Virus record (IMG/VR): IMGVR_UViG_3300000553_000205
Coordinates: 1-31,051 of that record
Reading direction: 5' to 3' (one strand)
Length of the DNA stretch: 31,051 nt
Origin: a virus
In this document: positions 4,842 through 31,051 of the stretch, one piece after another
Layout: each line of letters starts with the position of its first letter
How positions within the stretch are numbered: position 1 is the first letter of the stretch
Program-made: the position numbers and the translations under genes
The notes under the pieces: model-generated
What the model was told of the DNA's origin: nothing
What the model saw: the letters and a program-made list of their open reading frames with translations, nothing else
Database searches by the model: none

Positions 4842-5228
4842 ATGGCAATACTATACAAAGGTTTTAGCACTATAAATCGCAGCAAAAAGTTTCGTGCTGT
4901 AGATATTGATTTGGTCAAGCAGGATCTGCTCAATCATTTTGGTATCCGCAAAGGCGAAAAACTCATGCAGCCAAACTTTGGCAGTATTATATGGAGCCTG
5001 TTGTTTGAACCGCTTACGGATCATGTCAACGATTTGATAGTCAATGACGTCAAAAACATCGTGGGTTATGATCCACGACTGGGACTGAAAAATATCACTA
5101 TAACTGGTCAAGAACACGGTATTCAAATTGAACTAGATCTTGTATTCATACCCACCAACCAGTCAACCACACTCAGCCTGAACTTTGATGCCAACAGCAG
5201 CAAGCTGACCACTAGAGGCGCTTATTAA
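4842..5228 (+). CDS. 25: gp25-like baseplate wedge protein (GPW/gp25 family)
   Basis: This wedge component joins the inner baseplate ring and sheath initiation site to gp6. The 128-residue product has the family's usual size (T4 gp25 has 132 residues) and signature: an N-terminal basic segment, KQDLLNHFGIRKGEKLMQP, then NFGSIIWSLLFEPL, then the DPRLGLKNITI strand. It starts 7 bases after the spike stop and precedes gp6, an order typical of aquatic T4-like phages but not of T4 itself, where gene 25 lies elsewhere. No good Shine-Dalgarno is visible; translational coupling to the spike gene is likely. Confidence 0.93.
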   Translation: MAILYKGFSTINRSKKFRAVDIDLVKQDLLNHFGIRKGEKLMQPNFGSIIWSLLFEPLTDHVNDLIVNDVKNIVGYDPRLGLKNITITGQEHGIQIELDLVFIPTNQSTTLSLNFDANSSKLTTRGAY

Positions 5229-17600: not shown

Positions 17601-20600
17601 ACACATTGAAAAATTCACATGTGATCCATAGCGAATACCAATTGGTGCAAGAAGGCAACCCCAATAGCCCAATTCCCAAACGCATCATCAACAAGTTGAT
17701 TGACAGTTTGAGCGGTATTGACGCCAATGGCGTGGCAGTTCCTGAATCAGTGTTGACTCCGCAGAGCAGTATTGGACTTGGGGTATACCCAAATCAAACA
17801 CTGTTTGTAAATCGTTTGTCGGCACTGAAAAACTGGGTTGAGTATGTAAACGGCATACTGATACAGTATCCCATTGTTGAAGAATTCAACATCAGTGGCT
17901 TGTACCAATCTGCTGCTTTGCCTGACTTGTCAGCATACGATTTGCAAGTTGCAACACATGCCGAACTTGGCTATGTAGAAACCGACTACTTGACAGCAGG
18001 TTATGTGGCCTTGGTCACAACAGACGAGACACAGCAAGAACTATGGACCACATACACATGGAATGGTACTGCTTGGGTTTTGACCACGGTACAAAGCTAC
18101 TACACACCGTTCTATTGGAGCAAAACAGACTGGTACGACAGCACCTATGACAGTACAGTATTGCCCACATACGTGGTCAACACCACATCGGATGTTGCTG
18201 CACTGACATTGGCTGTTGGTGACACAGTCAAAGTGTTAAACAACGGCAACAGTCAATTTGTTGTTTATCGTGTAAACAGTGACTCTACTACTAGCCTAGT
18301 GGGCATTCAACAGGGTACTATACAGTTAAACAGCAACTTGTATACTACTGATGTTGCTGCCAACGAGATACGCATTATATTTGATGTATTGATGAACTAT
18401 ATTTTTATTGACACACTAAAAGTCAATTTTAATAACATGTTCTTCTTCTTGATCAACTATATTTTAACTGAACAACCAAACATTGATTGGGCATTTAAAA
18501 CCAGCTTTATCAGTATCTTGCACAAGTTGCGTAAGTTGGACCAACCAGCTAACTATGTACCAGACAATCAAACCTATTACGAAAACTATATCAATGAAGT
18601 CAAACCTTACAGAACCAGTATTCGTAACTACCTGATTGACTATCAAGGCAACGACGAGTACTATGGCGATACCACAGACTTTGACATTCCTAGCACTTAT
18701 ATAAATGATTTTGGCGGTTATCGCAGCCCAAATAGCAGCAACGGACTGGATTATACATGGTTAAGCACACTACCTCAGTATAGCCAATGGTATAAAAACT
18801 ACACTTACGGTATCACCAGTGTAACAGTGGCCAATATTGGCGCCAACTACACACTTACACCCACTGTGACTGTTGTTGGCGGCGGAGGCAGCGGCGCAAA
18901 TGTACGTGCCCTAGTAAACTTTGGAAACAACACCATTGAGGCGTTCCAAGTAATCAACCCTGGTTCAGGATATACCAGCCAGCCCACTATCTTTATTAAC
19001 GGTACAGGTACTGGTGCTACAGGCTATGCAACATTAAAAAATCACTACATGATTGAAAGTTTACCAACCACAGCATTGACTGCAAACAGCAATGTCACAG
19101 TGTATGTTGGCAATTTGATCACACAGCCCAATACTGGTGCATACGGTACTGTGTACTCGGCCAGCACTGGTAATTTGATTACGTTGATTGATACCACAGG
19201 AACATTTAACACCACTGACTACATTTTTAGTGATGCTGCCAATTTACATACCAATGTAACCACTATCAGCAGTTATACACAGTTTGTAAATCAAAGTTAC
19301 AATACAACACGCTCCATGGCAGTCACATTGAACTTTGATCGTGTCAGCTACAGCAGCAACGTGATTACTTGGCAACCCAATATCACAGTGGCCAACAGCA
19401 CAGTTGTAAGCTATAACGGACAAGCGTATCAAGCAACCAGCAACGTATACAGCACTGCTATTTTGACCTTGAGTGGAAACGTAAGTGCCAGCGTTGGCAA
19501 CTATGTTACACAGGCCAACACCACAGCCAATGCTCAAGTTATTGCCATCAGCAGCAATTTGCAGTTGATCACAGTGGCCAACTTGTCCAGCAACTTTGTG
19601 CGTCGTAGCGGAAATATTGCAGTCAACGGAACTCCAACCAATGTGCGCCCGGTTGTGGTCAACAACATATTTGACTATACCAAATACAACAAGATAACAT
19701 CTACACAAGTTGGCACAGCAGCAGATCGCATCAACGCATACTACACACCCACTGCCAGTATGCCCAGCAAAGATTTGGCGCAGTTGATGACTGGTGCAGA
19801 ATATCCAGGCGTCACAGTGGCTGGAGTAACCTACGAGGCCAACAGCAGCATATTCAGTAGCAATTTGATTTACTCACAATCAAGTACCAGTGCAATTTAT
19901 AGTGCCAACATCACTATCCCAACAGTGCAATTAACGATTGCAAATGTTGAAACACTATATACTGGCAACGTTATTACTCAAGCAGTGACTGGTGCGACCG
20001 GTAACGTATACAGCACCAGCACTGGTAATATAGTTACTTTAGTGAATGTAGTGGGCAGTTTTGACAACACTCACTATATTTTCCGTGATTCATCAAACTT
20101 GGCCACCACAGTGGTCAGTAGTACATCGTTTAATCAAACAACTACTCAAAACTTGGTGGACTTTACCAAATTGAATTACACCGCTGGACAGCCTCTAGTG
20201 TTGGTAAACCGAGACAACAGCACTCAGTACAATTTGGTCATTAATGAAATTGATCCTTGGAGGATAATTGTTGGCGGTGCGTTACCAACTACCACAATTG
20301 GTGCCAATTTGTCTTTGAAATACTACGACTACAACAATCCGTTGTACTTGGACAGTATCATTCAAAATACCTACACCAACAGCAACACAGCAATCAATAT
20401 AGATGGCGGTGCCTATTATGACACCTACAGCGGACATGGCCCTGAAGAACTGGCACCTGGGGTCACATTTGACAATCTAAATATGTTGGTCACAACCAAG
20501 TTTAGAAATAATACAGCTATTGGAACTTATCGTATTGTACACAATATGAATGCCAATGCAGCAAGTACCGATACCACAGTGTGGCCACAGTACTATGGGG

Positions 20601-21082
20601 TCAGCGCAAGTCATACCACTACATTAAGCGCCAATTTAAACATCACAGACAGCAATGTTCATGTTACCAATGCCAGAGCACTAACAACCCCAAATCCTGC
20701 AAGTTTGGTGCCCGGCGTGGTCTACATTAACGGTGAAAAGATTGTGTTCTGGGGCTTGGACACAGTCAACAACGTATTGTTTAATATTCGCCGCGCTGTT
20801 GATGGTACTGGCGCAGCCAACGTACACGCAGCTGGATCCACAGTGGTTGAATCTGGAATCAATCAGCTGATTCCGGGCGGAAACATTGTCCACACCACAA
20901 CTTGGCTAGATCTACCAGTGGGTGCAGCGCAGAATATGACTGACAATTTTGGCACACTGATTGTGGATAATTTTGGAAATATTCTTCAAACTACTGGTGC
21001 AAATCCAGGCGCAGTAACAGATGGACAGGGCTTGGAAAACTCAACTACAGTTCAAGCACAATTTATCAGAAACTTGACCTAA
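8654..21082 (+). CDS. Giant baseplate/tail structural protein at the gp7 position (4142 aa)
   Basis: A single open frame encodes 4142 residues, about four times T4 gp7. It starts 1 base after gp6, without a strong Shine-Dalgarno, so coupling to gp6 is likely. Residues 1-110 look like a wedge-attachment region (NFLPEVFKTDTNQKFLNATL; FDKFINFNQYYWLENGPD). About 160-265 is a cupredoxin-like fold of the type common in aquatic phage proteins, here without metal ligands. About 1764-1808 (AWQQGTDYLMGSLVQYKSN) resembles a CBM5/12-type carbohydrate-binding module. About 2056-2100 has the KPHGLAYNDIV / GFYRVYNI pattern of short phage beta-domains. About 2245-2715 holds FG-GAP-like repeats. About 3390-3460 has two NPGSGYT-type repeats. 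A domain is duplicated near 3481 and 3759. Near the C-terminus is PGVVYINGEKIVFWGLD, a motif of phage fibre ends. The gp7 equivalence is by gene order only; no enzymatic motif was seen. Confidence 0.85.
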   Translation: MAQIKTSNFLPEVFKTDTNQKFLNATLDQLVTQPDLRNVNGYIGRKFAPTFKSTDNYQPEPNVLRQNYQLEPSVVVKNKITGDTEFFSSYIDLLNQVGHYGGLTNNQTRLFTSESYSFDGLFDFDKFINFNQYYWLENGPDAVQVYGSAVPTTETFTVTRNTATGTYSFSNAQGVENPTIRLAYGGTYNFVVDQPGYPFWIQASSGVSGIKDNQTNLTSRDVLGVTNNGTDVGTITFRVPQPNAQDFYVRMPLAGSADISTMLSYTQIQGKRLSSIVSLFENGIDGVAAPNQLNLKSLIFVNNDLDDSKWIEGTYGLIPTAQRRNAWQITLSSTNGVIDADPIVKLNPLVQSFAISALQKVFVRGGNSRAEYTYYLANDYLSLNLFNLMPDITAPLSNLYYQDGVGASFVGEIDLLDPTSVTINVDANIVGSKNYKSPNGVTFTNGLKVTFDDSAVPNTYAGNTYYVEGVGSAIRLLDVNNFITPESYAANGLAAQDYITVNRGSQDLNPWTRSNRWFHIDVINTTAAYNNVNPILSQNLRASRPIIEFEADLQLYNFGRQAKTPVDLLDFTIVDSRNTVELQPAGYTLGGVTLTQGMRVVFANDFDPTVRNNIFVVNIVYLPGLGGNVINLVSASDATVAINNNLVVLRGTNKGVEYWYNGTWIQGQQKTGVNQSPLFDVIDSTGTSVGTYTGAYYAGTTTPFAGTKIFSYSVGTGNNDTVLGFPLSYRNFNQIGDIQFTNNFDTDTIDYVDGAGTAQSSVNINTLGTLQQNKSLTAYTSRNSWTTNTEPSKQFQVIGNIYDGNNAYFQIDIAQNSEVTVPYFRVYKNAIQITGWEFVTVGTIKYVHVTDATLSTGDQIDILVYNSSSTSNLGYYEVPKNLDLNSQNSEFKRLTLGQLRNHVSTMVANSNQITGSFPGASNLRDTYIKAQGGSILQHASPVLYSELFLVDDKTNFIDSLNLARHEYSKVKNKIIELSGRLSGLDYTNIPVLLDTLLKNINAVKNKSFAWYYSDMVPYGDIKNTITYTVLSAEIVDYEISSIFSDTTLSNLAVLVYKNNVQLIKGIDYVFDTNRAGITFLTPLAIDDVITINEYSDTDGNYIPETPTKLGLYPKFTPSKYYDTTYASPIYVIQGHDGSITPGFGDYRDDLLLEFEKRIYNNIKVDYVKNVFDIYNFLPGKFRSTEYSNTEFTQLLTNSFLTWVGGNRVDYISNTTFVASEPFSWNYNRFVDTVNGAKLPGYWRAIYKYFYDTDRPHTNPWEMVGFTEQPTWWETRYGPAPYTSGNKVLWGDMEIGLIWNNGDVSVDKRFARPGLSSIIPVDYTGALLPPSNFLVKSFSSNNASGNFKIGDQGPVETAWRRSSDFPYAMQQALALAKPAFYFGTLMDIGRYYKNIDLNQYVVSDTLQRVTPAIINVNGTTNGKNTILRAAGYINWIAEYLRNQGIDPGTKLYEYLDNVNIQLAYKMAGFTDQTFMQVIAEQSSPSSTNSGVVIPNESYAIKLYKSTPIKTVTYSGVIVERTATGYTVSGFDTDAPYFTIIPSLANNNSYSLTVLNEKGVIYQDYQQYKVTIPYGFEFTNRQQVVDFLVSYQRYLRGIGFRFTDVDPDLGVQRDWLLSVQEFLMWVQQGWQASSVLVLSPVLNRVTLFSASGVVDKIQNHPGQSRVLDTNYNFVKYSQLSVNRTSLATGNTFVLNANNGQTLALVKVDVVEYEHVMIFDNVDIFNDVIYVPELGNRQYRLKLVGKKTGAWTGAMNPPGFVFNNTTVDAWQQGTDYLMGSLVQYKSNNYTALQDVVASGTFDTTKWALVPGNGLKTGLLPNFSYNAEKFNRFNDVDNPELLGDFHLYSDSAIGFQPRDYLTNFGIDEVTQAKFYQGFIREKGTLNSIYAFTAAGFNGITSDISIYEEWGMRVGEYGALDNNRSVELILTEGTFNGDPVTFTLLPNNGSSISGIIGVQPSKLYKTEGTFQPNIYLNRNAGSIYSNDIQTAGYVDINDVTTTIFNINNLAALSSNIGKIGIGSTIWTANDVNSDWNVYRVSETDVTVQTISYAIDNIGTVTTDKPHGLAYNDIVAIKGFDVRVDGFYRVYNIVDAFNFSIVFYGQNATQIKQAITIVGTGPLFMLQSVRIKSPTDLNSITPAHGWINNDKLWVDNDNLTNGWAVYNKSTPWSGNVSPLNPSMKLNANSYATGTGFGTVTTINTAGTFAAAGLPTLNMGNVIAFVANITNGNVFTAVANIGAHPGNSVNKFGASLTTAGNLLYIGNPGTGTQYGRVHIHQFNGNASFPWIQTLTSPWSSNASDAYGTSIDASADGTWLYVAAPNAGNVYVYQANANSYYSYANTITVGSSSAAQFGYNVKTTSDGRQVAIGAPYQAVNGVSAAGAVYVFDRSVEAFIANGVTYTTQYTIGTTSRVTVNGNVVSTGYTGTGTTTLTFATAPVVGSLITVETNKIQLLETLTAPTPKSGAAFGTTTYIAGNDADVYVASPGYSVPGYYSGIVYRFVNQGASYGTITSTNYSPVINTGDNFRINGFEIVSQSNTVANLAATINSANIPGVTAIAQGYGALTLTSNVTTPYQKLVIGSGSGNLLANLGMMVYNNVQTLQHPAQDSVAEYGSQVLASPDSSSLVIAANGGSTQNITTFDTATTTFDTSTGIFIDTIEGSGMVYIYGLVNGAFSSTAQDQYVLIQRLQNNQLSSNDQFGYSVAMNANVMLVGAPGDSNTMTFSTINGAYTPIPSAGTYYTYNNFSGNVGWDVVEQQVDKVDIDSIGRMYLYNANTNVIVTQLDYIDPAKGKILGAAQQDLDYITAYDPASYNAVSGIDNIPNLANSLDYHWGPDHVTKTWWNTGVMRYIDYERGDLIYSANNWGKLFPGSTIQVCEWVESDMPPSAYTGLGTPLYSDNSAYSIVTTINPETKLATSKYYYWVTGKTSVEPDSVHINTISTIQDLITNPQAQNIPYAAVVRSDTISLHGISNYLSGNSTVLHVDYDTLKNSHVIHSEYQLVQEGNPNSPIPKRIINKLIDSLSGIDANGVAVPESVLTPQSSIGLGVYPNQTLFVNRLSALKNWVEYVNGILIQYPIVEEFNISGLYQSAALPDLSAYDLQVATHAELGYVETDYLTAGYVALVTTDETQQELWTTYTWNGTAWVLTTVQSYYTPFYWSKTDWYDSTYDSTVLPTYVVNTTSDVAALTLAVGDTVKVLNNGNSQFVVYRVNSDSTTSLVGIQQGTIQLNSNLYTTDVAANEIRIIFDVLMNYIFIDTLKVNFNNMFFFLINYILTEQPNIDWAFKTSFISILHKLRKLDQPANYVPDNQTYYENYINEVKPYRTSIRNYLIDYQGNDEYYGDTTDFDIPSTYINDFGGYRSPNSSNGLDYTWLSTLPQYSQWYKNYTYGITSVTVANIGANYTLTPTVTVVGGGGSGANVRALVNFGNNTIEAFQVINPGSGYTSQPTIFINGTGTGATGYATLKNHYMIESLPTTALTANSNVTVYVGNLITQPNTGAYGTVYSASTGNLITLIDTTGTFNTTDYIFSDAANLHTNVTTISSYTQFVNQSYNTTRSMAVTLNFDRVSYSSNVITWQPNITVANSTVVSYNGQAYQATSNVYSTAILTLSGNVSASVGNYVTQANTTANAQVIAISSNLQLITVANLSSNFVRRSGNIAVNGTPTNVRPVVVNNIFDYTKYNKITSTQVGTAADRINAYYTPTASMPSKDLAQLMTGAEYPGVTVAGVTYEANSSIFSSNLIYSQSSTSAIYSANITIPTVQLTIANVETLYTGNVITQAVTGATGNVYSTSTGNIVTLVNVVGSFDNTHYIFRDSSNLATTVVSSTSFNQTTTQNLVDFTKLNYTAGQPLVLVNRDNSTQYNLVINEIDPWRIIVGGALPTTTIGANLSLKYYDYNNPLYLDSIIQNTYTNSNTAINIDGGAYYDTYSGHGPEELAPGVTFDNLNMLVTTKFRNNTAIGTYRIVHNMNANAASTDTTVWPQYYGVSASHTTTLSANLNITDSNVHVTNARALTTPNPASLVPGVVYINGEKIVFWGLDTVNNVLFNIRRAVDGTGAANVHAAGSTVVESGINQLIPGGNIVHTTTWLDLPVGAAQNMTDNFGTLIVDNFGNILQTTGANPGAVTDGQGLENSTTVQAQFIRNLT
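15386..16800 (+). repeat. FG-GAP-like (integrin-alpha-type) repeat block inside the giant protein
   Basis: About six protein repeats lie in residues 2245-2715. Each begins with FG or YG plus a polar strand and ends in a IGAP/VAAP/VASP turn and often a G-x-V-Y-V-F-like strand. Examples: FGASLTTAGNLLYIGNPG, YGTSIDASADGTWLYVAAPN, FGYNVKTTSDGRQVAIGAP with AGAVYVFDR, YIAGNDADVYVASPGYS with GIVYRFV, YGSQVLASPDSSSLVIAANG with GMVYIYG, and FGYSVAMNANVMLVGAPGDS. The pattern fits a beta-propeller. The calcium-binding DxDxDG loops of integrins are only partly present. The fourth and fifth repeats are separated by inserted sequence. Confidence 0.75.
19094..19281 (+). repeat. Internal domain duplication, copy 1
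   Basis: Residues from about 3481 of the giant protein read GNLITQPNTGAYGTVYSAST, then GNLITLIDTTGTFNTTDYIF. This matches copy 2 at 19928-20137 in order and spacing (GN-ITQ, TGA-G-VYS-STGN, VTL, G-F, YIF). A shorter relative in between (ASVGNYVTQANTTANAQVIA) may be a third, worn copy. Confidence 0.7.
19928..20137 (+). repeat. Internal domain duplication, copy 2
   Basis: Residues from about 3759 read GNVITQAVTGATGNVYSTST, then GNIVTLVNVVGSFDNTHYIF, matching copy 1 at 19094-19281. The DNA of the two copies has diverged clearly, so this is an old protein-level duplication and not a recent DNA repeat. Confidence 0.7.
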
Positions 21083-21089
21083 ATAAATA
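21082..21089 (+). promoter_or_regulatory. Late-promoter-like motif AATAAATA before the fibre region
   Basis: AATAAATA overlaps the last base of the giant gene's stop codon and lies 23 bases before the next ATG. It is followed by AAAAGG and then TAGAGA as possible ribosome binding sites. The spacing suits a T4-type late promoter that would start transcription of the fibre genes independently of the 12.4-kb gene upstream. Confidence 0.5.
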
Positions 21090-21112
21090 TACAAAAGGCA
21101 TAGAGATTTAAC

Positions 21113-22099
21113 ATGACAATTACAATTACAAACTTACCGTTACAAGGTACAGTTTATGACAATACACTGATTCCCGTTGAAACTTCGGGCACAACCGGAC
21201 ATATTGCAGCCAGTTCAATCAAGAGTTATGTAAGCTCGGCTACATTGACTTCGGTCACTGCAACCTCGGGAACTTTTGGCAGCATGGGCGTTACTGGTGC
21301 AATCACCGCTGGAGGAGCAATCACCGCTGCAAGTCTTACCACTAGCGGAGATGTTCTAATTAACGGAAATTTGATCATAGTTGGACTTGAGAATGTCAGT
21401 GGAAATTTAACAGCCGCTAATATATTTGGTAATTTGTCAGGTAACCTGACCGGTAATGTGCAAAGCCCTTCTTCGGGTGGTAATGTTACTATTGGTAACT
21501 TGACAGCTTATGTCACATACCCAAATCAGCCCTATATCACTAACTTGGGCAATATCACCCTCAACAGACTAACAGCCAATGCCAACATTGCCGGTGGCAA
21601 CTTGTCTATTTCGGGTATCAGTGTATACGGCGGTGCCATATTGCCCACCAGCAACGCAGCAGCAGTCAATATTGGGTCCACTAGCAATTGGTTCAACAAC
21701 ATCTATGGTACCGCAGTTCACGCACTCTACGCTGACTTGGCTGAACGCTACACCAGTGACAGTCAATATCTTCCAGGCACTGTGGTGGTTTTTGGAACTG
21801 ACACCGAGGTCACAGCCAGTTACCAGCCAGGCGATGTGCGTGTGGCAGGTGTAGTAAGTACCAATCCTGCTTACACAATGAATGCTGGCATTGACGGAGT
21901 TGATGTAGCACTGCAAGGACGTGTGCCCTGTCAAGTAACTGGCACTGTGAACCGCGGAGATATGATGGTGACAAGTGCAATCCCTGGGGTAGCAATGGCC
22001 AGCAGCGCACCTGCAACAGGTTCTGTAATTGGCAAGGCCCTGGGAACACATACTGGATCAAGTGTGGGCTTGATAGAAGTAGTTGTGGGCAGAATTTAA
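21113..22099 (+). CDS. Tail fibre-like protein with YADLAER C-terminal module
   Basis: The 328-residue product begins with a typical phage fibre start (ITNLPLQGTVYDNTLIPVET). It continues through a low-complexity Gly/Thr/Ala/Asn repeat region (about 40-185; GNLSGNLTGNVQSP), likely a trimeric beta-helical shaft. The C-terminal module from about residue 187 contains NNIYGTAVHALYADLAERY, PGTVVVFG, AGVVSTNPAYTMNA, ALQGRVPCQVTG and NRGDMMVTSA. The same module ends the protein encoded at 27022-28281. Similar modules end many phage fibres, and some relatives are annotated as self-cleaving or chaperone-like; I cannot show cleavage here. Role: fibre or adhesin attached to the baseplate. Confidence 0.8.
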   Translation: MTITITNLPLQGTVYDNTLIPVETSGTTGHIAASSIKSYVSSATLTSVTATSGTFGSMGVTGAITAGGAITAASLTTSGDVLINGNLIIVGLENVSGNLTAANIFGNLSGNLTGNVQSPSSGGNVTIGNLTAYVTYPNQPYITNLGNITLNRLTANANIAGGNLSISGISVYGGAILPTSNAAAVNIGSTSNWFNNIYGTAVHALYADLAERYTSDSQYLPGTVVVFGTDTEVTASYQPGDVRVAGVVSTNPAYTMNAGIDGVDVALQGRVPCQVTGTVNRGDMMVTSAIPGVAMASSAPATGSVIGKALGTHTGSSVGLIEVVVGRI

Positions 22100-22100
22100 C

Positions 22101-22108
22101 GATAAATA
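22101..22108 (+). promoter_or_regulatory. Late-promoter-like motif GATAAATA
   Basis: GATAAATA sits 2 bases after the preceding stop codon and 22 bases before the ATG at 22131. This matches the spacing of the motifs at 5252 and 21082 to their downstream genes. It also supports 22131, not the earlier in-frame ATG at 22083, as the real start. Confidence 0.5.
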
Positions 22109-22130
22109 TAAAATAACTAGAGAACCAAAC

Positions 22131-22778
22131 ATGAGCAAAGATACAGTACGCCAACCAGACGATCTAAGTGGAATTTATGTAGCAGGCCACATCAAAATTT
22201 TCAACCCTGAGTCAGGCGAAGTGTTTGTCAACAAACGCAATGCTATTCACTACGAAAACATCAGTACAGCATTGGGTTACATGTTGGCCAACAAGGGTCA
22301 AAACTACATTTACGAAATGCACTTTGGCAATGGCGGTACCAGTGTTGACCCAACCGGCGTTATCACTTACTTGCCACCCAACACCACAGGACAAAGCAGT
22401 AACCTGTACAGTGCAACCTACAGCAAAGTGGTAGACGATACTGCTGCGGCCAACGGAAATCCTGCACAAAACTACATACAGGTTCGTCACATTCCGGGAC
22501 AAGTCTACACCGATATCTTGGTCAGTTGTTTGTTAGATTACGGCGAGCCTGCGGGACAAAGTGCGTTTGACAACAGTCAAACTTTGACAGATACTTATAC
22601 TTTTGACGAACTGGGCTTGTTTGGACGCAGCACTGATGGTACTACAGGACTGACAACTACAGGCCCCATGCTTACACACGTGGTTTTTCACCCAGTACAA
22701 AAATCATTGAATAGACTTATTCAAGTGGATTACACAGTTCGTATTCAAACACTAACCAACTTGAGCGCGATTGGATAA
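22131..22778 (+). CDS. Conserved phage structural protein, function unknown
   Basis: The 215-residue product has no signal peptide, membrane segment or enzymatic motif. Its N-terminal half has IYVAGHIKIFNPESGEV, then RNAIHYENISTALGYMLANK and YEMHFGNGGTSVDP. The C-terminal half is beta-rich and ends in an LIQVDYTVRIQTLTN strand. The pattern is familiar to me from structural proteins in tail gene clusters of aquatic T4-like phages, but I cannot name a T4 counterpart. An in-frame ATG at 22083 would overlap the previous gene and translate the promoter-like motif, so the later ATG is preferred. It lies between two fibre genes, so a connector or fibre-attachment role is possible. Confidence 0.8.
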   Translation: MSKDTVRQPDDLSGIYVAGHIKIFNPESGEVFVNKRNAIHYENISTALGYMLANKGQNYIYEMHFGNGGTSVDPTGVITYLPPNTTGQSSNLYSATYSKVVDDTAAANGNPAQNYIQVRHIPGQVYTDILVSCLLDYGEPAGQSAFDNSQTLTDTYTFDELGLFGRSTDGTTGLTTTGPMLTHVVFHPVQKSLNRLIQVDYTVRIQTLTNLSAIG

Positions 22779-22781
22779 TAA

Positions 22782-23957
22782 ATGTCATACTTAATTAATA
22801 AAACAACCGGTGAACTACTAGTTACGCTACTTGATGGTACTGCTGATGGTCCGGACATAAACCCTGGCTTGAATGTAGCCGACATTGATTTGTTTGGTAA
22901 AAACTATCCCTTGTATGGTCTTTATCAAAATGAAAATTTTATCAAATTATTGCAAAACTTTGCTGGAACTACTGCACCAGCTAAACCCTTGCAAGGTGAG
23001 TTATGGTATGATCTCACAACTGGCCTATTAAAAATCTACACTGGCACACAATTTATTCCAGTAAGCCCGGTAATTATTTCAAACTCAGCACCCACTACCA
23101 CACTGGTGGGAGCGCAATGGTGGGATATTACCAACCAACAGTTGAGCATGTGGAATGGTAGTTCTTTTACCTTGATCGGTCCAGCGTATAAAGCGCCCGA
23201 AGGCAAGAGTGGTGCAATCGTTGAAGATGTTCTCGACACTGTGGCAGTGACCCATACCATCATCAAGTTCTATCACAATAACAACGTGGTGGCAATTAGC
23301 AGTTTTGACCCAATATTTACACTCAGTGCAGCCAACCCCATAACAGGTTTTAGCACAATTGGCCCAGGATTTACCTTGGCAACAGGTGTGGCCAACAACT
23401 TGTTTTACGGAACAGCAGTCAACAGTCAACAGCTGGGCAATATTGCCGCTGTCAACTATGCCCGCAATGATATTGACAGCACATTCTATGGCAATGTCAC
23501 AATTGGTGGCGGCAATCTTGTGATATCAACCAATGCCAGCATTGGTACTGCTAAATTTCTCAACAACAACTTAAATGGCAACATCAGCTTCCATGCCAAC
23601 ATTGGCGGTGTAAGCACTCGTGTGTTGCACATCAATGCTGTCACCAGTGAAGTTGTGGTCAACACCAATCCTACTAGCTCTTTGGGTGTTGTCACCAAGC
23701 AGTACAGCGACAACAGTATTGCAACAGCAATCGCACCACTTGCTCCAAGCTATAGTCCAACATTCACTGGAGTACCCACAGTACCAAATTTGGTATTGGC
23801 CAGTGCAAATACTGCACAGGTTGCATCAATGGCATCTGTACAAAATGCCATCACCAACGGAAATACTGCACCTTGGCTGGGAAGTCAAAAGACAGTAAGC
23901 ACAAGTTTACCCACTAACGGCTCAGGCAACCCCGGCGACTTCTGGTTTCAAATCTAA
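22782..23957 (+). CDS. Tail fibre-like protein with N-terminal GKNYPLYG module
   Basis: The 391-residue product starts 3 bases after the preceding stop. Residues about 18-75 hold a module also present at the N-terminus of the 27022-28281 product: FGKNYPLYGLYQNENFIKLL then PLQGELWYD. Two short Trp-containing segments follow, LKIYTGTQFIPV and QWWDITNQQLSMWNGSSF, a repeat type found in many aquatic phage fibres. The middle is low-complexity Asn/Gly/Ile sequence. The C-terminus has YSPTFTGVPTVPNL and ends GNPGDFWFQI. The likely role is a virion fibre or adhesin. The N-terminal module probably attaches it to the particle, because that is the part shared with its paralogue. Confidence 0.8.
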   Translation: MSYLINKTTGELLVTLLDGTADGPDINPGLNVADIDLFGKNYPLYGLYQNENFIKLLQNFAGTTAPAKPLQGELWYDLTTGLLKIYTGTQFIPVSPVIISNSAPTTTLVGAQWWDITNQQLSMWNGSSFTLIGPAYKAPEGKSGAIVEDVLDTVAVTHTIIKFYHNNNVVAISSFDPIFTLSAANPITGFSTIGPGFTLATGVANNLFYGTAVNSQQLGNIAAVNYARNDIDSTFYGNVTIGGGNLVISTNASIGTAKFLNNNLNGNISFHANIGGVSTRVLHINAVTSEVVVNTNPTSSLGVVTKQYSDNSIATAIAPLAPSYSPTFTGVPTVPNLVLASANTAQVASMASVQNAITNGNTAPWLGSQKTVSTSLPTNGSGNPGDFWFQI

Positions 23958-23960
23958 TAT

Positions 23961-25682
23961 ATGACTATACCTAATGCAGCAGCTAGATACGGCCTAGGAG
24001 TCACATACGTAGAAAACTCCGGGACTTGGAATCCACTTAAAGGTATGTGGATTAACAATGCAGACGGAACTTGGCATCCAGTTAAAACTGGCTGGGTAGC
24101 ACACGAGGACGGAACTTGGGAGCGTATCTACCCAACCCCTAAAGGTATTTTTACACCCAATGTGGCCAGTCTCAATGCCAGTCCCTATCAATATCATTAC
24201 ACAGGCAATCTAAAGTTTCAAGTTACCAATACTGGCGACTATACTTTGGTCATTAACAATGCTTCAGTCACTGACAACTTTGGAAATTACAATACATCAA
24301 CTTTTACTTCATCAAACGCATTTCCAATCACACTAGAGACCAATGCATCTACAACTTTTACTAGCATCATCTATGGCGGTATTAGTGGTGGCATTTTTAC
24401 AGGCGGCAATATTGGCACTTTTACTGGCAATATCAATTTCACAAACTACACAGGGTATCTAGGTTATGCAAACGTAAATTATCCAGTGGTGGTAAATGTG
24501 TTACCCGACTTCAACGGCATTGGGTCCAATGTAGCTGCATTGTCAAATGTGTCTTATTATCAATACGAGACACCAACAGCACAAATTGTCACAATTACCA
24601 ATACTGGCAATGGCGCCGACTTGCATATATCAAATATCACTAGTCAACACGGTTATGTTATAGCATCCACAGCAAATTTGACAGCAAACGTTATTGGATA
24701 TAATTTTAACACTTACACAGGAAACGTTGCTCAACTGGCAGTAACACCAGTGGCAGGATTGTCCACTGGAACATACAAAGATACGGTAGTGATCACTAGC
24801 GATGCCCTAAATGCTCCAGTATATAAAATACCGGTCACTGTCAATGTAATTACACCAAATGGCAGGGATGTTCTTGAGACCGAGGGCAGCTATACTTGGA
24901 CAGTTCCTGCCCATGTATATCGTATTCGTCTGTTCTCAGTTGGTAGCGGTGCTGGGGGTGGTGCCGGAGTGTCAAATTATTCTACACAGCAAGGCGGATC
25001 CGGGGGCGGCGGTGGATCAGGTGGATACCAATACAGTTCCAGCTTGACTGTTGTTCCTGGAGAAACATTGACTATATCCATTGGTGTTCCGGGCGGAGCA
25101 GGTACTAAATCGGTTGGCATTTATAGCACTATTACAAACTATGGTGTTTGGAGTAGTTTTATGAACAACTATGCAGTTTGGGTAAGTGCCAATGGTATCG
25201 GGCCAGTCAATCGCTATGTGGGAACAAAACGTTTGGTCACATTCCCAGTTACTGGCAATTATACATTTTCTGCACAGGCTGATAACAGCGTTATCGTCGG
25301 TGTTGATGGTGTACAAAAATTAACTTCTAGTTCTTACAGTACATCAACCACTGCCTCAGTCAGTATCACTCAAGGCAGTCATGTTATTGAGTTTTTATCG
25401 CTTAACACCGGTGGCATAGGCGGATTTGCATTGACCATAGCAGATCCCACTTCAAATATCATATGGACCACTAGAACACTATTGGATCCATCGTCTGGAT
25501 TTGATGGCGGCCCTACCACAGTTACTGGTAGTTTTGGCACTATTACAGTTGCGGGCGGTGTTGCTGGTGGCGGCGCATACAATGACTATTCTCCTCCCGG
25601 ATACTATGGCGACGGACAAGGTGGCGAACCTGGCGACGAAGACAGCACCGACGGTGCTGGCGACGGCGGCGGTGGCTGTTAA
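23961..25682 (+). CDS. Glycine-rich adhesin with Hydin/Ig-like and PA14-like domains
   Basis: The 573-residue product starts with three short Trp motifs (SGTWNPLKG, DGTWHPVKTGW, DGTWERIYPTPKG). Two Ig-like domains of the ASPM/Hydin type follow (NLKFQVTNTGDYTLVINNAS at about 85; QIVTITNTGNGADLHISNI at about 212). A glycine-rich adhesin domain begins at about 300 (YTWTVPAHVYRIRLFSVGSG, then Gly-rich sequence). A PA14-like beta-sandwich is inserted into it at about 395-505 (SFMNNYAVWVSANGIG; FPVTGNYTFSAQADNSVIVG). The Gly-rich part resumes and stops abruptly in GAGDGGGGC. Such domains normally close with a strand such as GAVVIIWG. That ending is absent here but present in the 85-residue product at 26733-26990. 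The start lies 3 bases after the previous stop, without a clear Shine-Dalgarno. Confidence 0.82.
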   Translation: MTIPNAAARYGLGVTYVENSGTWNPLKGMWINNADGTWHPVKTGWVAHEDGTWERIYPTPKGIFTPNVASLNASPYQYHYTGNLKFQVTNTGDYTLVINNASVTDNFGNYNTSTFTSSNAFPITLETNASTTFTSIIYGGISGGIFTGGNIGTFTGNINFTNYTGYLGYANVNYPVVVNVLPDFNGIGSNVAALSNVSYYQYETPTAQIVTITNTGNGADLHISNITSQHGYVIASTANLTANVIGYNFNTYTGNVAQLAVTPVAGLSTGTYKDTVVITSDALNAPVYKIPVTVNVITPNGRDVLETEGSYTWTVPAHVYRIRLFSVGSGAGGGAGVSNYSTQQGGSGGGGGSGGYQYSSSLTVVPGETLTISIGVPGGAGTKSVGIYSTITNYGVWSSFMNNYAVWVSANGIGPVNRYVGTKRLVTFPVTGNYTFSAQADNSVIVGVDGVQKLTSSSYSTSTTASVSITQGSHVIEFLSLNTGGIGGFALTIADPTSNIIWTTRTLLDPSSGFDGGPTTVTGSFGTITVAGGVAGGGAYNDYSPPGYYGDGQGGEPGDEDSTDGAGDGGGGC

Positions 25683-25698
25683 TCAAATTTGACTTACT

Positions 25699-26721
25699 AT
25701 GAACTTTCAAACATTCAATGACTTTTTACCCACTGAAATCTTGACTCAAATTTTACAAGAAATAAATCAACGCGGTTGGAACTACGGATGGAGGAGTCGA
25801 GCAGCTCGAAACTCCAATATTCCGTTCAGCCACTGGAATGTGGATTTTGCTGGCACTGGCGCAGAAAACGGAATTGATGTCAGCACCAAACTGCCCAAGG
25901 CGTTGGCAGCAGCTTGGCAACATATACAAACAAACCACTGCCCAACAGCAAGATTGGTAAGATGTTACGCCAATGGACACACATACGGCGTTGAAGGTTA
26001 TCCGCATACTGACTCAATTCGTGCAGGAGACAAAACTCTACTGGTGTATTTGAATCAAACTTGGAAAAGGGACTGGGGCGGCGAAACTGTATTTTACAAT
26101 GACGACGAAGTGTTACATGCAGAATTACCAAAATACAACAAGGCCATACTGTTTGATGGAAATATCACACATGTGGCCAAAGGTGTAGCAAGAGTATGTC
26201 CCAGTTTGCGTATCACATTGATGTTTAAAATATTAGAATCTGTTGATCCTGTACGAGATCAGTTACAGGAGTTTTTGTCTACAGTGCAAGCTGACGAAGC
26301 TGGACATTCCGCCAATACACTAACAGGGCACTTGCTACGAACTTATGATTTGCTAAAGCAAGCTGGACAAACACAAGAGGTCTGCAATGCTGGCGCCGTA
26401 CACAGTATCTTTGGTACCAATATTTTTGCTTGGCACGATCGACTCAACTACAATGACAGGCCCAAGATTGAAGCAGTAGCTGGGTTTGCTGCAACTCGAC
26501 TTGCAGAAATATTCAGTAAATTGCCGCGCCCGGGTGTGCTGGAAATGAATCTTGGCACATTTACTGGCAGTTTACTGGCTCTTGATGGTACCACTATGTC
26601 CATCAGCGCAGAAGATTTTGCTGCGCTGTGTGCAATTGAAGCAGCAAACTTACAAGATCAATCGGGACTAGACCCCTATCCCGGGCTCAAACAGCTTTGG
26701 GCGGAATTAAATAACAAATAA
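25699..26721 (+). CDS. 2OG-Fe(II) oxygenase (prolyl hydroxylase-like) fused to a DUF6817/HD-like domain
   Basis: Residues about 1-185 form a prolyl-4-hydroxylase-like dioxygenase. The Fe(II) ligands are His103 and Asp105 (GYPHTDS) and His158 (GNITHVAKG), and Arg171 (SLRITL) is placed to bind 2-oxoglutarate. Such enzymes hydroxylate protein side chains or small molecules. Residues about 198-335 form a second domain with His203, His211 and His235 in HSANTLTGHLLRTYDLL and AGAVHSIFGTNIF. This resembles the DUF6817 family of HD-like putative metal hydrolases. The gene lies between two glycine-rich adhesin genes, 16 bases after one and 11 bases before the other. I infer that a virion protein may be the substrate, but the sequence does not show it. 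The oxygenase call is firm; the name of the second domain is from memory of its motif. Confidence 0.88.
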   Translation: MNFQTFNDFLPTEILTQILQEINQRGWNYGWRSRAARNSNIPFSHWNVDFAGTGAENGIDVSTKLPKALAAAWQHIQTNHCPTARLVRCYANGHTYGVEGYPHTDSIRAGDKTLLVYLNQTWKRDWGGETVFYNDDEVLHAELPKYNKAILFDGNITHVAKGVARVCPSLRITLMFKILESVDPVRDQLQEFLSTVQADEAGHSANTLTGHLLRTYDLLKQAGQTQEVCNAGAVHSIFGTNIFAWHDRLNYNDRPKIEAVAGFAATRLAEIFSKLPRPGVLEMNLGTFTGSLLALDGTTMSISAEDFAALCAIEAANLQDQSGLDPYPGLKQLWAELNNK

Positions 26722-26725
26722 GGAG
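26720..26725 (+). promoter_or_regulatory. Strong ribosome binding site for the 85-residue Gly-rich gene
   Basis: AAGGAG overlaps the stop codon of the oxygenase gene and lies 7 bases before the ATG at 26733. It is the best Shine-Dalgarno I saw in the fibre region, where most genes have weak ones. It shows that the short glycine-rich frame is translated as its own product. Confidence 0.75.
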
Positions 26726-26732
26726 AAACATC

Positions 26733-26990
26733 ATGGCAGGAGGAGCAGGTGGCGCAGGCGGAAGCCCGGGCGGTGTAGCAGGAGCATCGGGTGTAACACA
26801 GCCATATGGCAGCTACGACACTGTATATGGCGGTGCAGGTGGCGACAACGGGGCCACTATCAATGACGGGCCAGTGGTATTTGGTCCTTTTGGACAGGGC
26901 GGAGCCGGTGCCGATGTTTTTTCATCCTCGGGCAGCACAGGGAATCCTGGCGCAGTAGTCATAATCTGGGGCAAGGGCCTGAACGGCTAA
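26733..26990 (+). CDS. Short glycine-rich protein, looks like a detached adhesin C-terminus
   Basis: The 85-residue product is about one third glycine (GGAGGAGGSPGGVAGASG; YGGAGGDNG; GPFGQGGAGADVF) and ends GNPGAVVIIWGKGLNG. The closing G-A-V-x-I-I-W-G strand is how glycine-rich phage tail-tip domains usually end. The upstream 573-residue adhesin lacks this ending. The protein could assemble in trans with that adhesin, be a small tip adhesin in its own right (compare polyglycine-sandwich adhesins such as phage S16 gp38, by analogy only), or be a remnant of a disrupted gene. A strong AAGGAG site argues for expression. Confidence 0.75.
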   Translation: MAGGAGGAGGSPGGVAGASGVTQPYGSYDTVYGGAGGDNGATINDGPVVFGPFGQGGAGADVFSSSGSTGNPGAVVIIWGKGLNG

Positions 26991-26994
26991 TCAG

Positions 26995-27002
26995 CATAAA
27001 TA
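26995..27002 (+). promoter_or_regulatory. Late-promoter-like motif CATAAATA
   Basis: CATAAATA lies in the 31-base gap after the short glycine-rich gene, 19 bases before the ATG at 27022. It is followed by AAAGAGA (27007-27013), a plausible ribosome binding site. The position matches the other late-promoter-like motifs here. Confidence 0.5.
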
Positions 27003-27021
27003 AGCTAAAGAGACAAAAACA

Positions 27022-28281
27022 ATGACTTACAGTATTACGTTGACAAATGGAACTCCCTTAACCAATTTGCAGGACGGGGCCGAAGATTCAACCACCACTA
27101 GTTTAAATCTTGTTGGTAGAAATTATCCCGGATACGGACTGTTCCTTAACGAAAATTTTGTCAAACTGCTAGAAAATTTCAGTAATACGACACAACCGTC
27201 AAATCCCTTGCAGGGCCAGCTGTGGTGGGATAGTCAGAATAAAGAATTAAAAGTATGGAACTTGCCCACTGGCGGTGCAGCAGGCAATTGGAAAGTAATC
27301 AGTAGCAGTCAAACGGGCTCGGTTGCACCAGCAAACCCAGTTGTGGGAGATTTTTGGTGGAACACCAATACCAGCACACTCAGTGTCTACAGCGGATCGC
27401 AATGGATCTCTATTGGCCCTAGTAATGCTCCGGGAACAGTGCCATCTATTGCAGCCAACGTCACATATGATAATTTGTCAGCACCACATTATGTGGGCAA
27501 CGTCACGGTCAATAACAAATTTGCTGGAGTTTTTAGTACTGATTCTACAGCATTTACGCCCGGTACCCCGTCGTTAACTGGCGGATTAACCACTGTCACT
27601 CCCGGTTTAAACTTGGTGGGCGGAGTTACTGCTGCCAACGTATCAACTCCGGGCGCTGTCACAGCCAATTCAGTTACAGCCAACACTCTCTCTGCTGGTA
27701 CTTTGACCATATCCAATTCGTTGAGTGTGACTGGTAATGTCAACTTTACCGGTAATATCTCCTTCCCATCAAATCCCTCTACATTCAGCAACATCAGTTC
27801 AAGTATCACACCCAGTGCCAATTTGAGCTACAATTTGGGCAGCGTGACCAATTGGTGGAACAACATCTACGGTACTTCAATTCATGCACAATATGCTGAC
27901 TTGGCCGAAAGATTTGAAGCAGATGCAGTGTATGACCCCGGTACAGTGGTTGAACTGGGCGGCGCAGCAGAAATTACCGCAGCGGTTAGCGATTTAAGCG
28001 AAGATGTGTTTGGAGTCATAAGTACTAGAGCAGCCTTTGTTATGAATAGTCGAGTAGGAGACGATCTTACTCATCCCCCAATTGCAGTGCAAGGACGTGT
28101 GCCAGTTAAAGTGATTGGCGTAGTTCGCAAAGGTGATCGTCTGGTCAGTGCCGGCAACGGCGTTGCTCGTGCAGGACTAAGAAGTGAAATCACAACTTGG
28201 AACGTCATAGGACGTAGTTTAGAAAATAAAGACACACTCGGTGAAGGCACAGTTGAAGCCGTAGTGAAATTGAATTCGTAA
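27022..28281 (+). CDS. Mosaic tail fibre-like protein with both shared modules
   Basis: The 419-residue product combines modules of two upstream genes. Residues about 10-75 (VGRNYPGYGLFLNENFVKLL, then PLQGQLWWD) match the N-terminus of the 22782-23957 product. Residues about 270-419 (NWWNNIYGTSIHAQYADLAE, PGTVVELGG, AVQGRVPVKVIG) match the C-terminus of the 21113-22099 product. Between them are Trp-containing segments (FWWNTNTSTLSVYSGSQWIS) and a Thr/Val/Asn-rich shaft. The product ends in GEGTVEAVVKLNS. A late-promoter-like motif and AAAGAGA precede the ATG. It is likely a virion fibre with the shared attachment module at one end and the shared tip or maturation module at the other. Confidence 0.83.
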   Translation: MTYSITLTNGTPLTNLQDGAEDSTTTSLNLVGRNYPGYGLFLNENFVKLLENFSNTTQPSNPLQGQLWWDSQNKELKVWNLPTGGAAGNWKVISSSQTGSVAPANPVVGDFWWNTNTSTLSVYSGSQWISIGPSNAPGTVPSIAANVTYDNLSAPHYVGNVTVNNKFAGVFSTDSTAFTPGTPSLTGGLTTVTPGLNLVGGVTAANVSTPGAVTANSVTANTLSAGTLTISNSLSVTGNVNFTGNISFPSNPSTFSNISSSITPSANLSYNLGSVTNWWNNIYGTSIHAQYADLAERFEADAVYDPGTVVELGGAAEITAAVSDLSEDVFGVISTRAAFVMNSRVGDDLTHPPIAVQGRVPVKVIGVVRKGDRLVSAGNGVARAGLRSEITTWNVIGRSLENKDTLGEGTVEAVVKLNS

Positions 28282-28291
28282 GGAATAAAAA

Positions 28292-29230
28292 ATGGCATAC
28301 AGTCAAGGCGGCTTAATTGCAGCAACAGATTACAACACATTTGTTGGCACAAGTCCCAGCAGCACACCAAACCAAATTAACACAGTTTGGGCAGTAGGTA
28401 GCGGATACGTAGGCTATGGCCAAACATCAATCACACAAGTAAGTAGTACAGGACTGGTCACCGCTACTCAGTGGGCCACAGCAGTTAACGCATTGAATAG
28501 TATTCGTACTCATCAAACTGGCACAGGTACAGGCATTGGCGCTCCAACTTCTGGTAGTTTGATTACCTATTTGAGTACTTTCAGCTCTAGCATTACTTCA
28601 GCGTATACCAATGCGGCCAGCTTCAACTCACAGGGTACAACAGTTACCGGATCAGTTTTTAACGCTTCAGTTACAGCAACCAACGGTACAGCATATCCCG
28701 AAACTACAATTTTAACTAGAACTATGACATTTGGTAGTGGAGACCAAGCACGTTATTTCTTTAATGCTGGCGGCCAATTGAATTTTGTTGTTACTGGCGT
28801 GACCAATAATGACAACACTCAGCGTAGCGCAGATGCTATAACTACCATGCTTACCAACTTTGGTGGCGTTAGCGCTTTCCGTGCAAACACAAACGGCGGA
28901 CGTACTGGTACAGGCGGTACTGTTACTACCAACAACACCGCCGTTGGCTATTATAACCTGTCTACTTCAGTGCAGAACACACAGTATATTGCATCAGCCA
29001 ACGTAACATACAATGCTGACTTTACTAGATTCTATGTAAGTTCAAACGGAACAAACTTAGCAGGTCACAATGATGCTGGCAGTGCAGTTATATTCCAACT
29101 CAACTATGCATCAACACACGCTGGTAGCTTTAACGATACATTAAACGTTACAGTAGGACATCGGGTTGACGTTATCTACCCAGAAACAACCAACCTTGCC
29201 AACACCTGGGGCGCAGTAGTTATATCCTAA
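28292..29230 (+). CDS. Phage tail/virion structural protein
   Basis: The 312-residue product is rich in Thr, Ser, Asn and Ala. It starts MAYSQGGLIAATDYNTFVG and has a helical N-terminal part (ATQWATAVNALNSIRTHQ) followed by a beta-rich body. The segment FGSGDQARYFFNAGGQLNFV recurs in virion proteins of aquatic phages. No enzymatic motif, signal peptide or membrane segment is seen. TAAGGA at 28279-28284, overlapping the previous stop, supports the ATG at 28292. It is the last gene of the late fibre block; downstream lies a sigma-70-type promoter with a palindrome. Probably a tail or fibre component; its exact place is unknown. Confidence 0.8.
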   Translation: MAYSQGGLIAATDYNTFVGTSPSSTPNQINTVWAVGSGYVGYGQTSITQVSSTGLVTATQWATAVNALNSIRTHQTGTGTGIGAPTSGSLITYLSTFSSSITSAYTNAASFNSQGTTVTGSVFNASVTATNGTAYPETTILTRTMTFGSGDQARYFFNAGGQLNFVVTGVTNNDNTQRSADAITTMLTNFGGVSAFRANTNGGRTGTGGTVTTNNTAVGYYNLSTSVQNTQYIASANVTYNADFTRFYVSSNGTNLAGHNDAGSAVIFQLNYASTHAGSFNDTLNVTVGHRVDVIYPETTNLANTWGAVVIS

Positions 29231-29235
29231 ATCTC

Positions 29236-29264
29236 TTGACATCTACACAGTAGTCAGTTATACT
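29236..29264 (+). promoter_or_regulatory. Near-consensus sigma-70 promoter
   Basis: TTGACA (29236-29241), a 17-base spacer and TATACT (29259-29264) differ from the ideal bacterial housekeeping promoter by one base. The expected start of transcription is about 29270-29272, at or beside the ATG at 29271, so the mRNA would be leaderless or nearly so. It differs in kind from the NATAAATA motifs upstream and points to early or constitutive expression of the last operon by host polymerase. Confidence 0.7.
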
Positions 29265-29270
29265 GTGTAG
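29243..29270 (+). repeat. Perfect 10-base inverted repeat overlapping the promoter
   Basis: CTACACAGTA (29243-29252) and TACTGTGTAG (29261-29270) are exact reverse complements separated by 8 bases. The right arm contains most of the -10 box and ends just before the ATG. This suits a dimeric repressor operator. As RNA it would be a hairpin at the end of the late transcript, but there is no U-run after it, so a standard Rho-independent terminator is unlikely. Confidence 0.75.
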
Positions 29271-29582
29271 ATGAGTACTGAACAACTACTTTCCCAAATA
29301 CGTCAAGCCACAAGCTATCAGCAGAACAAACAGATTCTGCGAGAAAAAATCCAAACCGATTTACATTTTGCCTATAATGGTGGCTTGTTCAAAGTCACAC
29401 CCGAACTGTTGGCATTCGTTGCCACTTGGCCTATAGATGAGCTGTACTTGGAAGATACTTACCAAAATCCCATTGAGATTGATCGTACAGTGTTTTTGGT
29501 ACAAGCACAGCAACACTATCAAAAAGTAATGAACCGTTGGCATCAAGCACATGACGAACTCAAACGTATCCGTAAAGTCTAA
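29271..29582 (+). CDS. Small protein of unknown function (103 aa)
   Basis: I do not recognise a family. The product is mixed helical: an N-terminal helix (MSTEQLLSQIRQATSYQQNK), a middle with the order FAYNGGLFKVTPELLAF / WPIDELYLEDTYQNPIEI, and a long charged C-terminal helix (AQQHYQKVMNRWHQAHDELK). There is no signal peptide or membrane segment. A stop codon lies directly before the ATG in frame, so no upstream start is possible, and no Shine-Dalgarno is present, in keeping with a leaderless message. Its last 32 bases overlap the next gene, so the two are probably coupled. Confidence 0.78.
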   Translation: MSTEQLLSQIRQATSYQQNKQILREKIQTDLHFAYNGGLFKVTPELLAFVATWPIDELYLEDTYQNPIEIDRTVFLVQAQQHYQKVMNRWHQAHDELKRIRKV

Positions 29583-30360
29583 AGGTGTTGTGGTGTTTGC
29601 GTTCAACACGCAAGTTGACTATGTGGCCATTGCTGACCAAACCTGTAGACTGATTGAAAAGAACTTGGGTCTGCCCATTACATTGATAACCGATCATGAT
29701 GCCGACCCCAAATTCAATTACGACAAGGTGTTGCGAGTTGACCCACAGGGACATACATTTCGTACAGAAGATGTAAATCTACAGTGGCGTAACTTTGGTC
29801 GGTATCTTGCCTACAATCTCAGTCCCTATGATGAAACCATCGTGCTGGACACAGACTATTTGGTATTGGATGATAGCTTGCTCAAACTGTTTGAAACAGA
29901 TTGGGACTATAAACTCATGCACCATAACAGTGATGAGAATGGGCCTAGTTATGAACTAATGGGTAATACCAGTTTGCCATTTGTTTGGGCCACAGTGGTG
30001 CTATTTAGAAAAAGCCCACAAGCTGAAATGTTGTTTGAACTGGTGGGCAAGATACAGCGCAACTACAACTATTACCGCCTGCTGTACAACATTAGAGAAG
30101 GTAACTATCGCAATGACTATGCCTTTGCCATTGCCAACACTATCATGAGCGGATACCATGTCAACGAACAGCAGGGCATACCTTGGCGTATGTTTACAGT
30201 GTCTGGACCAATTGAACGTATAGCGGCCACTGGGACACAGATTCATGTACACCTAGCCGACAAGGCCTTGGTACTGCCCCATCAAAATATACATGTCATG
30301 GACAAAGCATACTTACAAACTGACAACTTTAAGGACTTGGTAAATGAGCTCACAATTTAA
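29551..30360 (+). CDS. GT-A-like glycosyltransferase (probable)
   Basis: The 269-residue product opens with a Rossmann-like strand (GVVVFAFNTQVDYVAIADQT) and a second strand LPITLITDHDAD. At residues 100-102 it has a D-T-D motif in DETIVLDTDYLVLDD, the expected metal/nucleotide-sugar site of GT-A enzymes. Later segments are LPFVWATVVLFRKSPQAEML and an RNDYAFAIANTIMSG segment, as in GT8-like acceptor regions. The ATG at 29551 lies inside the previous gene (32-base overlap). GTG codons at 29590 and 29593 after AAAGGT are alternative starts but would cut into the first strand. Possible roles are glycosylation of phage DNA, virion protein or host surface glycan; the sequence does not say which. 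Confidence 0.72.
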   Translation: MTNSNVSVKSKGVVVFAFNTQVDYVAIADQTCRLIEKNLGLPITLITDHDADPKFNYDKVLRVDPQGHTFRTEDVNLQWRNFGRYLAYNLSPYDETIVLDTDYLVLDDSLLKLFETDWDYKLMHHNSDENGPSYELMGNTSLPFVWATVVLFRKSPQAEMLFELVGKIQRNYNYYRLLYNIREGNYRNDYAFAIANTIMSGYHVNEQQGIPWRMFTVSGPIERIAATGTQIHVHLADKALVLPHQNIHVMDKAYLQTDNFKDLVNELTI

Positions 30361-31051
30361 AGAACAACAGGGCTTTGTGACTTTTGCAGTTAACAGTTTA
30401 GAAACTAACTATCTTGAACTAGCATATCTACAGTGCCTAAACGTAAAAGCAACACAAGAGCAAAATAGCTATGCTGTGATTGTGGACGAAGCAACTAACA
30501 AGTTAGTTACAGCGCAACACCGTAGAGTGTTTGACTATGTGATTGTTATGGGTGACATAAGCCATATTTTTGGCATACCCTTTGGTTACGAGGCCATGGT
30601 CAATCACTACACTCCATTCAAAGAAACCATCAAACTGGAAAGTGATCTATTGTTTACACAGAGCATTGACCACTGGTGGACTGCTTTTAGACTCAAGAAC
30701 GTTTGTCTTAGTACTGGTGCAAAAAATTTTACAGGTGTTAGAAGCACAGTTCGCAAATACCGAGAAGCATTGGATGCTAACAGTTTGCCCGACGTCTATA
30801 ACGGGCTTATGTATTTTAGATACAGTAGAGAAAGTACTGACTTCTTTTCAGTAGCAAACAGCGTATTTCACAACTGGGTTATGATATCGCAAGAGCTACG
30901 ACAGTTTGACACTATCGTACCCAGCACAGATGTAGTCTATTCTATCACCGCAGAAATCATGGGTAGAGAAACAGTCACAATGCCCAGTATGGACTTTATC
31001 AACTTTGTACACATGAAGTCGGGCTTTAACGGCTGGAGCGACGCCCGCAGT
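30344..31051 (+). CDS. Second glycosyltransferase-like protein (3' partial)
   Basis: The ATG at 30344 overlaps the previous gene by 17 bases, and the frame stays open for 236 codons to the right edge, so the C-terminus is missing. It begins MSSQFKEQQGFVTFAVNS and has YVIVMGD, then E-S-D at residues 99-101 in ETIKLESDLLFTQSIDHWW. This is the same place and context as D-T-D in the preceding protein. NGLMYFRYSRESTDFF corresponds to the acceptor-side segment of GT8-like folds. The two proteins appear to be distant paralogues. Glu in place of the first Asp of the DxD motif may still bind metal, or may mark a change of function. Confidence 0.75.
   Translation, partial: MSSQFKEQQGFVTFAVNSLETNYLELAYLQCLNVKATQEQNSYAVIVDEATNKLVTAQHRRVFDYVIVMGDISHIFGIPFGYEAMVNHYTPFKETIKLESDLLFTQSIDHWWTAFRLKNVCLSTGAKNFTGVRSTVRKYREALDANSLPDVYNGLMYFRYSRESTDFFSVANSVFHNWVMISQELRQFDTIVPSTDVVYSITAEIMGRETVTMPSMDFINFVHMKSGFNGWSDARS

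Follow-up and report, generated by a model that had tools for sequence, protein, structure and literature searches.

What does a perfect palindrome do when it lies across a strong promoter at the border between two blocks of phage genes? The question is raised by a 31-kb virus contig from IMG/VR (record IMGVR_UViG_3300000553_000205; its whole stretch of 31,051 nucleotides is called the window here), which belongs to a group of large T4-like environmental phages that are uncultured. A first-pass annotation had proposed that a bound dimer uses the palindrome as a DNA operator, and that a leaderless, separately controlled operon begins there. Comparison with related loci retains the leaderless start and the separate control but argues against the operator. 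In its place we favor, at somewhat better than an even chance, an insulating RNA hairpin that carries the promoter of the next block in its loop and stands between a late structural block and one with different timing.

Among the genes upstream of the border, one encodes a baseplate hub/tail lysozyme and two encode baseplate wedge proteins; the larger wedge protein has its closest named relatives (about 34-38% identity) in large myoviruses including SCTP-2, XaC1, Atu_ph07, and RaK2. Five ATAAATA motifs are present, all on the + strand and each just 5′ of a structural gene start (4831, 5253, 21083, 22102, and 26996); their count alone is not above chance, and it is their placement ahead of structural genes that suggests T4-type late promoters. 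The tail region also holds a single open reading frame of 4142 aa (8654-21082) and, among the tail genes, one (25699-26721) whose product carries a 2OG-Fe(II) oxygenase domain and, after it, DUF6817. Beyond the border (Table 1), the second gene found no match in Pfam or PHROG, and later genes of the downstream block include, in a sister contig, one for a radical-SAM protein.

Table 1. Features at and around the border between the two gene blocks, with positions in the window
Feature	Position	Strand	Remarks
Nearest 5′ late-type motif, ATAAATA	26996..27002	+	Putative T4-type late promoter; possible source of read-through RNA
Last gene of upstream late block, 312 aa, ending ...WGAVVIS	28292..29230	+	40 nt before ATG; related C-terminus in most relatives
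-35 hexamer TTGACA	29236..29241	+	Read directly; invariant in the 8 closest loci
Hairpin 5′ arm CATCTACACAGTA	29240..29252	+	13/13 complementary; covaries with 3′ arm; within promoter spacer
Hairpin loop, 8 nt	29253..29260	+	Inverted-repeat search and RNA fold
-10 hexamer TATACT	29259..29264	+	Read directly; invariant in the 8 closest loci
Hairpin 3′ arm TACTGTGTAGATG	29261..29273	+	Holds discriminator and whole start codon
Predicted transcription start, A of ATG	29271	+	Seventh base after -10
First gene of downstream block, 103 aa	29271..29582	+	214 tblastn-confirmed relatives in viral contigs
Second gene, 269 aa	29551..30360	+	32-nt overlap with first gene; similar overlap in most related loci
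Third gene of downstream block, PHROG 1903	30344..31051	+	Continues past window end

The promoter had been described as TTGACA-17-TATACT ending six bases before an ATG, and a direct reading agrees: with a score of 11/12 it is the best sigma-70 match within 21000-31051, and its arrangement (hexamers 17 nt apart at 29236-29264, within the 16-18 nt expected of TTGACA/TATAAT-like pairs) is conserved in relatives. The inverted repeat and its 8-nt spacer were likewise recognized correctly, but the arms measure 13 bp rather than 10, and the repeat does not stop at the ATG, the whole of which lies inside the 3′ arm. The perfect repeat covers the last two bases of the -35 hexamer, most of the -10 box, and the entire ATG; the first two bases of TATACT close the hairpin loop and the remaining ones fall in the 3′ arm, whose position is the same in the window-type loci L003-L010 and L077. 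The repeat at 29240-29273 is alone in the window: no other has perfect arms of 10 bp or more around a loop of 3-20 nt. Sixty dinucleotide shuffles of the window gave on average 0.5 repeats of at least 10 bp and 0.017 of at least 13 bp, the latter figure ruling out a chance palindrome.

As RNA, the window sequence is predicted to form a hairpin of -18.9 to -20 kcal/mol (z = -3.2 for the -20 kcal/mol fold) in which the AUG is paired, and the same is predicted for close relatives. Since the 5′ arm ends ahead of the -10 box, the RNA made from this promoter would lack that arm. The hairpin has the stability of an intrinsic terminator, and the 3′ arm is followed directly by AGTACTGA in place of a U tract; for want of this tract the window copy falls outside the definition of an intrinsic terminator, and termination there is doubtful. 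A search of Rfam gave no credible match to a known RNA family. A terminator serving the opposite strand was considered and rejected, since inspection by eye shows no T-rich tail there and the border lacks a convergent gene. Fold energies favored the + strand over the - strand, but the hairpins had been picked on the + strand and the comparison is not relied on.

The proposal of a leaderless start is supported by spacing. At this locus, two promoter layouts share the 6-nt distance from -10 box to ATG. Genome-wide in relatives, the distances from sigma-70 -10 boxes to the ATGs of predicted genes show a peak of 13 genes at 6 nt; across all ATGs of three records, 23 lie at 6 nt against about 5 for each other distance, and 27 lie 4-5 nt from the late motif ATAAATA. 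These peaks can be seen at L174-L182, L183-L188, and L192-L209 (records G003, G002, and G005). Judging by such spacing, leaderless starts look common for both early and late genes in these phages. Within the window, the small baseplate wedge gene has its ATG (4842) 4 nt past the end of an ATAAATA motif (4831-4842), and for this reason that late gene may also be leaderless. The window's -10-to-start region, TATACTGTGTAGATGAGTA, recurs unchanged in the sister contig (L190:19071-19089; record G001, + strand 39071-39089), where it precedes another gene (338 aa) and has a small hairpin upstream.

Searches with the 103-aa protein yielded 80 loci and alignment supplied more, for a total of 98 including the window, of which 77 are distinct as defined by differing upstream DNA. 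The locus matched none of the named phages of INPHARED in DNA or protein, and bacterial genomes gave no confirmed relative of the 103-aa gene. The protein family carries no database name, and sequence searches of Pfam, PHROG, and PDB for a function found no match. A confident AlphaFold2 model (pLDDT 90) runs helix, beta-hairpin, helix, beta-hairpin, helix; together with two weak similarities, one with E 0.05 to prefoldin beta and one with E about 0.01 to DUF4376 proteins of phages, it hints weakly at a prefoldin-like fold, and a chaperone role would be a guess.

Almost all loci share one gene order: a gene whose product ends like ...WGTVTIS comes first, then the border and the 103-aa gene, and last a gene of ~270 aa that usually overlaps the 103-aa gene by at least 32 nt. 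A hairpin at the border is kept in nearly all of the 77. The annotation had suggested checking related phages for conservation of the palindrome; what they conserve is its pairing, while the sequence differs by lineage. The hairpin spans the -10 box in 50 of the 77 loci, mostly with a T-rich tail like that of an intrinsic terminator. We sorted the layouts into five classes that we defined ourselves, letting a script make the assignments apart from a few made by hand (the placing of L014 in class C and of L022, L023, L031, and L155 in class B is weak). In class A (8 loci, including the window), the hairpin lies over the -10 box and the ATG is inside the hairpin; in class B (42 loci), the hairpin again lies over the -10 box, with the ATG 18-32 nt downstream and, in most cases, T-rich sequence beyond the 3′ arm (as in L046: AAGGTTAGTGTATAATTTACACTAACCTTTTTTACA). 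Class C (13 loci) mostly has a separate canonical terminator and then a plain promoter, with the 6-nt spacing to the ATG in 12; class D (4 loci) has a terminator and then the late-type motif GATAAATA 5 nt before the ATG; and class E (6 loci) has a promoter and then a hairpin with a T-rich tail. Four loci show no clear layout.

Where a separate canonical terminator lies upstream, then, the promoter is free of a palindrome. Exchange of a hairpin over the promoter for a separate terminator is what would be expected if the task of the hairpin were to stop or silence incoming RNA. About 16 layout changes are needed on a tree of 76 proteins, itself short and poorly resolved. As read from these sequences, the border swaps between several solutions while the insulating hairpin persists.

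Whether the palindrome acts as DNA or as RNA can be addressed through the ways in which its arms have changed. In the window type (eight sequences), 95% of cells are paired and 5 pairs have changed on both sides, mostly through L009, in which four adjacent pairs have been exchanged. Covariation by itself is compatible with operator and RNA alike, as an altered repressor specificity would also shift both half-sites together. Mismatches in the arms, which were located by a rule blind to G.U, comprise 19 G.U, 2 A.C, and 13 others (nominal p 1e-4, with loci that are related and counts that are not independent). The helix of the GGTGTAG lineage, interrupted on one side by a one-base bulge, is 100% paired and covaries beyond the bulge. 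After class B hairpins the T fraction is 0.54, compared with 0.30 in upstream sequence, and the T-rich stretch is one-sided. The G.U bias, the bulged covarying helix, and the one-sided T-rich stretch together point to RNA rather than to a dimer operator.

An operator would have a phage or host dimeric repressor on the palindrome, blocking polymerase at the sigma-70 promoter, and a perfect dyad across the spacer and -10 box is what one might draw for it. PY54 cI/cro is a real phage switch with a promoter-region palindrome and leaderless RNA (PMC4488713), and operators of the PY54 and lambda type, which sit by the promoters of repressor genes read from leaderless mRNA, resemble the window in combining a palindrome with a strong promoter; those, however, are bound by Cro/CI, whereas the evidence here favors RNA pairing. 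Two-fold-symmetric DNA conserved in sequence, the mark of an operator, is not what the relatives present: the sequence varies by lineage, mismatches are G.U over A.C, and the palindrome is missing wherever a separate terminator is present. Further copies of the palindrome are found neither in the 31-kb window nor in the 50-kb sister contig, and no regulator was recognized among the neighboring genes searched. The absence of a second palindrome from these two sequences makes an operator regulon less likely, but each is a fragment of a genome, and operators present in a single copy are known. A 10-mer half-site does recur in the sister contig, mostly without the palindrome. Dimer-bound DNA at this site thus seems unlikely, although an operator unique to the window clade keeps some probability.

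The hairpin might instead be a relic, derived from a terminator of the kind seen in relatives but deprived of its U tract and now of little effect, with only the promoter and the leaderless start of consequence. The window type indeed has no U tract, and pairing has partly decayed in L008 and L010, which are mismatched, and in L077, whose hairpin is weaker (-6.6 kcal/mol); against this, 13/13 pairs persist in the window and in L003, and the four adjacent two-sided exchanges of L009 are hard to explain without selection on pairing, so that decay to irrelevance appears improbable. A role in protecting or processing the late message upstream at its 3′ end, as a stability or RNase III hairpin whose overlap with the promoter does no more than save space, would suit a hairpin that begins 9 nt past the upstream stop codon and the near universality of border hairpins. 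It leaves unexplained why the window type has its ATG buried and why relatives have T-rich tails, and we give it little credence; terminators protect 3′ ends too, so both views overlap.

The insulating hairpin, by comparison, would act differently at the two levels. In DNA, host polymerase would read the sigma-70 (early-type) promoter, and the downstream RNA would start at the AUG, leaderless. RNA reading through from the late block would contain both arms, and its 13-bp hairpin would bury the AUG and leave the downstream gene untranslated; in most relatives, the equivalent hairpin with its U-rich tail would be an intrinsic terminator for the upstream block. The -10 box is situated within the hairpin loop or next to it, so that an RNA initiated from this embedded promoter would lack the 5′ arm: starting at 29271, it would retain no more than the final three bases of the 3′ arm, form no hairpin, and escape the block. 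Silencing of messages from the preceding block would keep the two blocks separately controlled, in line with the separate operon first proposed. Lacking a Shine-Dalgarno sequence, read-through RNA might be poorly translated even without the hairpin. Promoter, hairpin, conserved pairing, leaderless spacing, and gene order rest on comparison; termination in relatives, timing, and start-codon sequestration in the window we infer, the last from the predicted fold and by analogy with T4.

In T4, leader hairpins bury the initiation region of gene e (lysozyme), soc, 49, and I-TevI in read-through RNA; for gene e, late promoters lie in the DNA of the hairpin's 5′ part, and their own RNA, without the 5′ arm, is translated (PMC3014915). 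The window is alike in that the AUG is buried in the predicted fold of upstream-initiated RNA and the promoter's own RNA would be without the 5′ arm. The order is reversed, however: embedded promoters in T4 are late and the silenced RNA is early, whereas the window promoter is of the early, sigma-70 type and the silenced RNA would be late. T4 also uses a Shine-Dalgarno sequence, whereas the window, which has none, would start leaderless. Only the logic is compared, and no sequence or gene homology is claimed. Many relatives resemble ordinary intrinsic terminators in having a hairpin and U-rich tail after a late gene, but differ in that the next promoter's -10 box sits in the hairpin loop region. 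In Escherichia coli, the ampC attenuator doubles as the terminator of the frd operon. The ampC promoter lies inside frdD, and an attenuator accompanies it (PMC11796351). In the window region as in frd/ampC, the next gene's promoter and the preceding operon's terminator share one compact region; the frd/ampC hairpin, however, follows the promoter, as in class E relatives, rather than surrounding the -10 box.

Other sites of this kind may exist in these phages. A count over the window and four related records of up to 354 kb gave 9 promoter-like sites in which a stable hairpin covers the -10 box and a T-rich tail follows, compared with 3 in shuffles, which is a modest excess; the 354-kb relative has clear terminator-promoter overlaps of unrelated sequence (L199, L197, and L205, minus strand). 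On the minus strand of record G005, the -10 box lies within T-tailed hairpins at L197, L199, L200, and L205, several of them directly before an ATG. In the phage literature, as far as our incomplete coverage extends, we found no paper describing a promoter in a terminator loop. We suggest tentatively, and at slightly less than an even chance, that a -10 box inside the terminator or silencing hairpin of the preceding block is a widespread phage insulator acting on incoming RNA only, and that in the window lineage a terminator has turned into a start-codon lock with leaderless early-type transcription, the mirror of T4 gene e.

The border combines known parts in a new way and does not represent a new kind of system. 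It amounts to a compact, testable design for separating adjacent gene blocks without extra DNA, in which the same stretch would serve as promoter in the form of DNA and as silencer in the form of RNA. It also carries the caution that a palindrome covering a promoter need not be an operator, and it points to widespread leaderless initiation in uncultured large T4-like phages.
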